NCBI GenBank assembly: GCA_027006785.1
Contig: JALTFR010000011.1
Coordinates: 1 to 64,000 of the forward strand
Reading direction: 5' to 3'
Source of the DNA: Thermoplasmata archaeon
GTDB taxonomy: Archaea; Thermoplasmatota; Thermoplasmata; WALJ01
Length of the DNA stretch: 64,000 nt
How positions within the stretch are numbered: position 1 is the first letter of the stretch; each line of letters begins with the position of its first letter. A program made the translations under genes and the position numbers. This document shows positions 20,772-21,192 of the stretch, piece after piece. Below the pieces are notes generated by a model that saw nothing but the letters and a program-made list of their open reading frames with translations, was not told the DNA's origin and did no database searches.

Positions 20772-20998
20772 AAATTCTAAAGAATTTCACTCAAGCAGGC
20801 CAAAGGGGCAGGGCTTAGGAATCTTCTTAAACGAATGACTTTTTCCGCTATACAATGCAGGGGTACCCGCACGGACTTCCAGAAGGAAGTCCTGTTCGTG
20901 AAATTCTAACGAATTTCACTCAAGCAGGCCAAAGGGGCAGGCATTACGAATATTCTTAAATGTGTGGTTTTCTCCGCTCTACAATGCAGGGGTACCCG
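20772..20998 (+). repeat. degenerate ~129-bp tandem duplication containing tRNA-Leu fragments and tRNA promoter region
   Basis: AAATTCTAA(A/C)GAATTTCACTCAAGCAGGCCAAAGGGGCAGG at 20772 and 20901; GCAGGGGTACCCG at 20857 and 20986. Confidence 0.9.
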
Positions 20999-21068
20999 AG
21001 CAGGCCAAAGGGGCAGGGCTTAGGACCCTGTGGTCAGTCCTTCGTGGGTTCGAATCCCACCCCCTGCA
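20986..21068 (+). tRNA. tRNA-Leu (anticodon TAG)
   Basis: Acceptor GCAGGGG/CCCCTGC, anticodon stem CAGGG-CTTAGGA-CCCTG, variable arm, T-arm GTGGG-TTCGAAT-CCCAC; no encoded CCA. Confidence 0.95.
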
Positions 21069-21125
21069 CTTCTTCGCTGCGCTCAGTCGTGCAGGAGGCT
21101 TACTCGCAAAGACATTACTTTGCTC

Positions 21126-21140
21126 ATCCCACCCCCTGCA
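21126..21140 (+). repeat. 15-bp direct repeat of tRNA-Leu 3' end
   Basis: ATCCCACCCCCTGCA at 21054-21068 and again at 21126-21140. Confidence 0.9.
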
Positions 21141-21192
21141 TTTAACAACTATTAACTACGACCCAGCTACAATCAGTTGTCGGGCATGTATC

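Follow-up and report, generated by a model that had tools for sequence, protein, structure and literature searches.

Double-hairpin modules within partial tRNA gene copies at the tRNA loci of a Thermoplasmata family

Many tRNA genes in one family of Thermoplasmata archaea lie next to incomplete copies of their own sequence, and these are broken up by a recurring double-hairpin module, here called A-B. We put at about even the chance that these modules form a family of DNA palindromes specific to tRNA genes, whose gain and loss go along with a partial duplication of the tRNA gene. The anatomy of the units, their recurrence, their specificity for tRNA genes, the clustering of the breaks, the paired change of the two stem arms and the presence or absence of units in close relatives were all observed directly.

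Results

The tRNA-Leu(TAG) locus

The window, i.e., the whole stretch of 64,000 nucleotides that was analysed (contig JALTFR010000011.1, assembly GCA_027006785.1), carries an intact tRNA-Leu(TAG) gene, at which no Rfam family but tRNA reached its gathering threshold. A preliminary description of this DNA had reported tRNA fragments upstream of the gene with a period of 129 bp, and both were confirmed. A 98-nt repeat pair (20772-20869 and 20901-20998) shows 88% identity at a spacing of 129 bp, GCAGGGGTACCCG (nt 1-13 of the tRNA) occurs a second time at 20857-20869, and a 26-mer of the tRNA lies at 20795-20820, with an 18-mer part of it at 20924-20941. A 23-mer from the repeat was found three times in the window (with at most 2 mismatches), and not once in 100 shuffles. 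The fragments had been read as being in permuted order, which is wrong: each unit is collinear, running from the promoter through nt 1-13, hairpins A and B and nt 14 to ~40 to the next promoter, and the first unit (20772-20820) is merely the second one without its 5′ part, the truncation falling in hairpin B. Missed at that stage were the two hairpins between nt 13 and 14, and a 15-nt copy on the 3′ side that is associated with a reverse complement and a hairpin. The features of the locus are as follows.

20772..20793, + strand: hairpin B remnant of the first, 5′-truncated unit (AAATTCTAAAGAATTTCACTCA); from the 98-nt repeat and the sequence
20794..20820, + strand: partial tRNA copy 1, nt 14-40, ending exactly after the anticodon loop; from the repeat and the sequence
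20821..20856, + strand: duplicated promoter region of copy 2, with a TATA-like TTCTTAAA at 20824-20831; 28/36 nt identical to the promoter of the intact gene
20857..20869, + strand: partial tRNA copy 2, nt 1-13; from the repeat and the sequence
20870..20922, + strand: double-hairpin A-B module (53 nt) between nt 13 and 14, hairpin A at 20873-20892 and hairpin B at 20898-20919; covariance model R1 (see below), 52.6 bits; fold z = -5.2
20923..20949, + strand: continuation of partial tRNA copy 2, nt 14-32 exact (20923-20941), then diverged to ~nt 40; from the repeat
20950..20985, + strand: promoter of the intact tRNA, with TTCTTAAA at 20953-20960; from the sequence
20986..21069, + strand: intact tRNA-Leu(TAG); ARAGORN; Rfam RF00005, 56.8 bits
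21070..21088, + strand: 19-nt spacer TTCTTCGCTGCGCTCAGTC, resembling the spacers directly 3′ of many tRNA genes of the genome; from sequence comparison
21089..21125, + strand: downstream unit, reverse complement of the tRNA 3′ end (GTGCAGGAGG) plus a B-type hairpin (21106-21123); fold z = -4.8 (21089-21143); R1, 30 bits
21126..21140, + strand: direct copy of the last 15 nt of the tRNA (T-loop to 3′ end); from the repeat

Spacers of the type CTCGCTTCGCTCAGTCG recur right 3′ of many tRNA genes (window 21070-21088; L069, L071, L073, L084, L127), and are often followed by the reverse complement of the tRNA 3′ end.

Partial tRNA copies in five genomes

The flanks of nearly all tRNA genes were compared in the window's genome (G000) and in four relatives of the same family (G001-G004). 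An own-tRNA copy was defined as an exact match of at least 12 nt to the tRNA's own sequence within 500 bp. Such copies were found near 20/43, 19/34, 17/32, 17/29 and 16/43 tRNAs in G000 to G004, respectively (37-59%), versus 3-10% in a control where tRNAs were paired with the flanks of other isotypes. A search of other tRNA genes, suggested in the preliminary description, recovered the same layout elsewhere in the genome and in its relatives. Chance repeats were rejected by the mismatched-isotype and shuffle controls. An assembly artefact, which had been raised as the refuting explanation, is ruled out in practice, since five separately assembled genomes share the arrangement.

In the five genomes, upstream copies were nearly all 5′ parts of the tRNA, and downstream copies were 3′ ends. 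The 53 upstream 5′-part copies break at nt 13-15, at nt 18-27 (with a peak at 24) or at nt 59-61, i.e., in the D-arm region or the T-loop, and none of the 53 was unbroken. A Watson-Crick stem of at least 5 bp lies within 60 nt after the break in 46 of them, versus 21% in shuffles. At His (G001), Arg(CCG) (G002) and Arg(GCG) (G003), the upstream copy extends to nt 59-61, with the module in the T-loop and then the 3′ end. The downstream 3′-end copies (n = 48) were 15 or 16 nt long in 37 cases and lay 44-325 bp from the tRNA end, several of them in tandem. An intact, uninterrupted tRNA stands beside every copy, and most copies are without a 3′ half.

Promoter-like sequence precedes many copies (mean motif score 6.8 vs 3.7 in shuffled sequence). 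The promoters of the copy and of the intact gene are identical at some loci (36/36 nt at Ala(CGC) of G000), related at others (28/36 nt in the window) and unrelated at still others, and tandem units with identical promoters were found at Ala(CGC) in G000 and at Ala(GGC) and Arg(CCT) in G003. Because the two promoters are unrelated at some loci, simple tandem duplication is insufficient to explain all units, and the idea of an exact duplicate of the original promoter in every unit was dropped.

Variants of this layout were also seen. Where tRNA-Met has 5′ copies (L228 in G002, L239 in G003, L257 in G004), the partial copy lies from a few to ~20 nt from the intact tRNA, a promoter-like motif is found inside the insert, and in G002 the unit is in tandem; the copied nt 25-44 may thereby have turned into the pre-tRNA 5′ leader. 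At tRNAs for Val and Thr (L143 and L206 in G001; L219 and L221 in G002; L236 and L241 in G003; L140 in G004), one long hairpin is made up of the 5′ copy, hairpin A and the tRNA 5′ end in imperfect reverse complement; tandem versions occur at Val(TAC) of G001 and Thr(GGT) of G004. Upstream tRNA copies are likewise interrupted by another tRNA-linked repeat, which is longer and has a CTTTCTTT...AAAGAAAG stem (L073, L074, L077, L092 and L072 in G000; L208 in G001; L226 in G002); it frequently ends with GGGTTCGCCTGCTCGCTCGC.

The A-B hairpin module

Alignment of units from 17 places gave a module consensus of ~48-55 bp: CAYG, hairpin A, a TGSTCG linker, hairpin B and CTC. A covariance model of the A-B module, R1, was run on the five genomes and yielded 92 matches, of which 74 (80%) had a tRNA gene within 400 bp, although this zone makes up 2.3-2.8% of the genome; in G000 alone, this was the case for 27 of 28. 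The tRNA-linked matches were 39 upstream in sense, 29 downstream in sense and 6 downstream in antisense orientation (68 sense to 6 antisense). The other 18 of the 92 had no tRNA within 400 bp, several being at contig ends, and no other stable Rfam RNA gene was found beside them. A search of viral contigs with two exact patterns of the B hairpin gave 0 matches.

The stems are maintained while their sequences change. Among 86 distinct sequences, 92% of the stem cells pair; the 98% for B stems is inflated, as these were partly selected for pairing, whereas A stems were not so selected. The stem covariation score was 0.522, compared with 0.224 in shuffled alignments and at most 0.143 in slid versions. 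The loop GCGTAA was found on ~10 different stems, and the loop ATCCTC on ~6 different fully paired stems. With all mismatches counted alike, single stem mismatches were G-U (G-T) in 47 cases and A-C in 38, so that the stems do not show a clear wobble excess such as selection at the RNA level usually leaves. Stems and even insertion sites vary between loci, and neither a constant target-site duplication nor a constant target sequence was found for A-B modules.

Filled and empty sites in relatives

The comparison with close relatives, also suggested earlier, revealed that the arrangement varies: at Leu(TAG), Arg(CCT), His, Ser(GGA) and Gln(TTG), G001 is filled, having both copy and module, and G004 is empty, having neither, with all tRNAs intact. 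The flanks of this pair are similar enough to be aligned, and two genomes cannot separate insertion from excision. Homology (87-96% identity) extends across the upstream flank and part of the tRNA, and is taken up again near nt 1 of the intact gene. It ends within the tRNA at nt 13/14 in Leu(TAG), 23 in Arg(CCT), 59 in His, 14 in Ser(GGA) and 13 in Gln(TTG), and the alignment ends give inserts of ~226, ~139, ~229, ~140 and ~123 bp, respectively.

Across the class, 19 of 300 genomes match R1, 14 of them outside the family and mostly with single weak matches; the A-B model is thus nearly restricted to the window's family. Simpler versions occur in other families of the class, where the tRNA 5′ end is found with an opposite-sense hairpin (GAGC...GCGAC) and a reverse complement, or where 3′-end copies are present. 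Examples are G005 (5 of 15 tRNAs), G024, G034 and G080. The nearest homologues of the HtpX gene beside the locus carry the label Thermoplasmata or that of archaea at large, which puts G000 near Thermoplasmata.

Search for candidate enzymes

Y1 transposase (PF01797) had no match in G000, G002, G003 and G004, which are incomplete drafts, and partial matches in G001. Tyrosine recombinase (PF00589) had matches in each of the four relatives but none in G000, whose assembly is 90% complete; even a Xer-type recombinase was thus missing from the PF00589 search of G000, which may reflect a gap of the assembly. Reverse transcriptase was not found in the five genomes. These three enzymes, none of them found in G000, were rejected as drivers, as was an RNA-mediated route, considered for the strand bias, given that the five genomes yielded no reverse transcriptase. 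A casposon-type solo Cas1 was likewise rejected: the sole Cas1 of G000 sits with Cas4, Cas2 and an apparent CRISPR array (L329, contig C19), and G001-G004 gave no Cas1 match.

Discussion

On our preferred reading, the tRNA-Leu(TAG) locus is one instance of a palindrome family that belongs to tRNA genes throughout the genome. The A-B module interrupts a partial copy of the adjoining tRNA gene in the D-arm or the T-loop, and with it comes a fresh copy of the interrupted part, in most cases with a promoter, so that an intact tRNA gene is always left. Module insertion and duplication of the 5′ (or 3′) part of the gene may be one coupled event, probably at the DNA level and acting on palindromes where the DNA of tRNA genes is single-stranded or stalled. 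Units would later be multiplied or lost by recombination between the direct repeats, which would account for the 129-bp period at tRNA-Leu(TAG). No candidate enzyme was found among those searched, and host repair or replication acting on the palindromes is a possible agent. The modules are most likely selfish or neutral. Some observations go against this reading: a simple DNA palindrome would hardly give a sense bias as strong as 68:6, G000 showed no candidate enzyme among those searched, no constant target was found, and 18/92 R1 matches have no tRNA within 400 bp, though several of these are at contig ends. Only tentatively, and with some doubt, do we suggest that the gene-less hairpin cassettes are mobile DNA that enters tRNA loop positions exclusively and restores an intact tRNA and its promoter in the same event, without any recombinase tested and with a simpler form across the class.

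The main rival to a DNA module is a functional RNA. The interrupted copy would then be a gene for a structured small RNA, composed of the tRNA 5′ half and two hairpins and expressed from a tRNA-type promoter, which would serve as a decoy, a leader or a processing signal for the neighbouring tRNA. The strand bias, the paired change on both stem arms with conserved loops, the promoter-like sequence 5′ of many copies and the good folding of the window copy (z = -5.2) would fit such an RNA. We nevertheless consider it somewhat improbable, since G-U is not clearly above A-C, close relatives differ in whether a given tRNA has a copy, stems vary among loci as do insertion sites, and similar hairpins have the opposite sense outside the family. 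The near-absence of a G-U bias also speaks little for the tRNA-mimic RNAs suggested in the preliminary description. The main idea of that description was a recombination scar. In its plain form, tRNA genes would have undergone unequal crossing-over or tandem slippage without any mobile module, and the hairpins would have triggered this or resulted from it. The core of the idea, repeated recombination or duplication, holds up in the direct repeats, which could recombine, in the tandem units with identical promoters, and in the empty versus filled sites of relatives. What did not survive is the picture of a scrambled locus peculiar to tRNA-Leu(TAG), given that a like architecture is found at 37-59% of tRNA genes in five genomes. 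As a full account, a scar is unlikely: one A-B module with conserved linkers recurs at many different tRNA genes, no 5′-part copy is free of interruption, and break positions are common to different tRNAs.

Partial tRNA copies in archaea come mainly from integrative elements that use tRNA genes (PMC9897764), and the 15-16-nt 3′ copies resemble att repeats. Attachment-site debris of elements that have themselves been lost is, however, a very improbable source here, because the repeats enclose ~40-230 bp without genes, are nested and in tandem, include the end of the local tRNA in reverse complement, and occur as 5′ copies too, and because G000 has no tyrosine recombinase match. Least probable of all, to the point of being nearly negligible, are tRNA introns or split or permuted tRNA genes at non-canonical positions. 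Extra archaeal tRNA introns do occur in tRNA loops or arms, where the breaks at 13/14, ~24 and 59/60 lie, and some Arg and His upstream copies reach nt 59-61 and continue with the 3′ end after the insert. Set against this, an intact tRNA accompanies every copy, most copies are without a 3′ half, and no bulge-helix-bulge motif was evident by eye at the insert ends.

tRNA genes are classic landing sites for mobile DNA, where insertion as a rule depends on an integrase and on an element able to restore the tRNA. In the family studied here, about half of all tRNA genes have a gene-less palindrome of ~50 bp, placed at positions that different tRNAs share and always with the intact tRNA kept. If insertion and duplication are indeed coupled, this would point to a so far unknown route of DNA movement at tRNA genes, and if the copies are transcribed they would point to a large class of tRNA-half RNAs. 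The interrupted copies also account for false partial tRNA calls in such genomes.

Several known systems share part of these features. The double-hairpin and repetitive hairpin-forming elements (DHE, RHE) of fungal and sponge mitochondria are mainly intergenic (PMC2800124). Like them, the A-B modules are short, non-coding hairpin modules that invade genomes and vary in close relatives, with two hairpins per unit and a structure that is kept as the sequence varies. Unlike them, A-B modules are archaeal, nearly confined to tRNA loci (80% of matches within 400 bp), and in many cases inside partial tRNA copies; instead of a dispersed intergenic insertion, we find them at set tRNA positions and with a partial tRNA duplication. 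REP/BIME sequences are dispersed, non-autonomous bacterial palindromes that occur in arrays and are moved by RAYT (IS200/IS605-like Y1) transposases, whereas A-B modules are specific to tRNA genes, no constant flanking tetranucleotide was seen beside them, and four of the five genomes have no Y1 match. The RtT repeats at E. coli tyrT (Rfam RtT) are tandem units 3′ of the tRNA, each with a copy of the tRNA 3′ end, at a single locus. Tandem downstream copies of the tRNA 3′ end are found here as well, but the archaeal units occur at many tRNAs, include 5′ copies, and have a reverse-complement and hairpin layout absent from RtT, with no Rfam match besides tRNA. Plastid trnF pseudogene arrays are known in Brassicaceae as well as in Solanaceae, and we know of no recurring hairpin module in them. 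Those of Solanaceae are tandem partial tRNA copies beside the intact gene (PMC3786074); they concern one tRNA only, as opposed to the many tRNAs of the archaeal family. The archaeal tRNA gene fragments that derive from integrative elements flank elements of ~9-23 kb (PMC9897764). Partial tRNA gene copies are common to both, yet the segments enclosed here are gene-free and of ~40-230 bp, the 5′ inserts being ~120-230 bp. In the open literature that we searched (subscription journals being outside its scope), we found no description of tRNA-linked palindromes in archaea. In none of the compared systems do confinement to tRNA loci, set breaks in the tRNA, a double hairpin that recurs and a regenerated tRNA occur together, and the units described here look like a tRNA-gene-linked repeat system undescribed so far.
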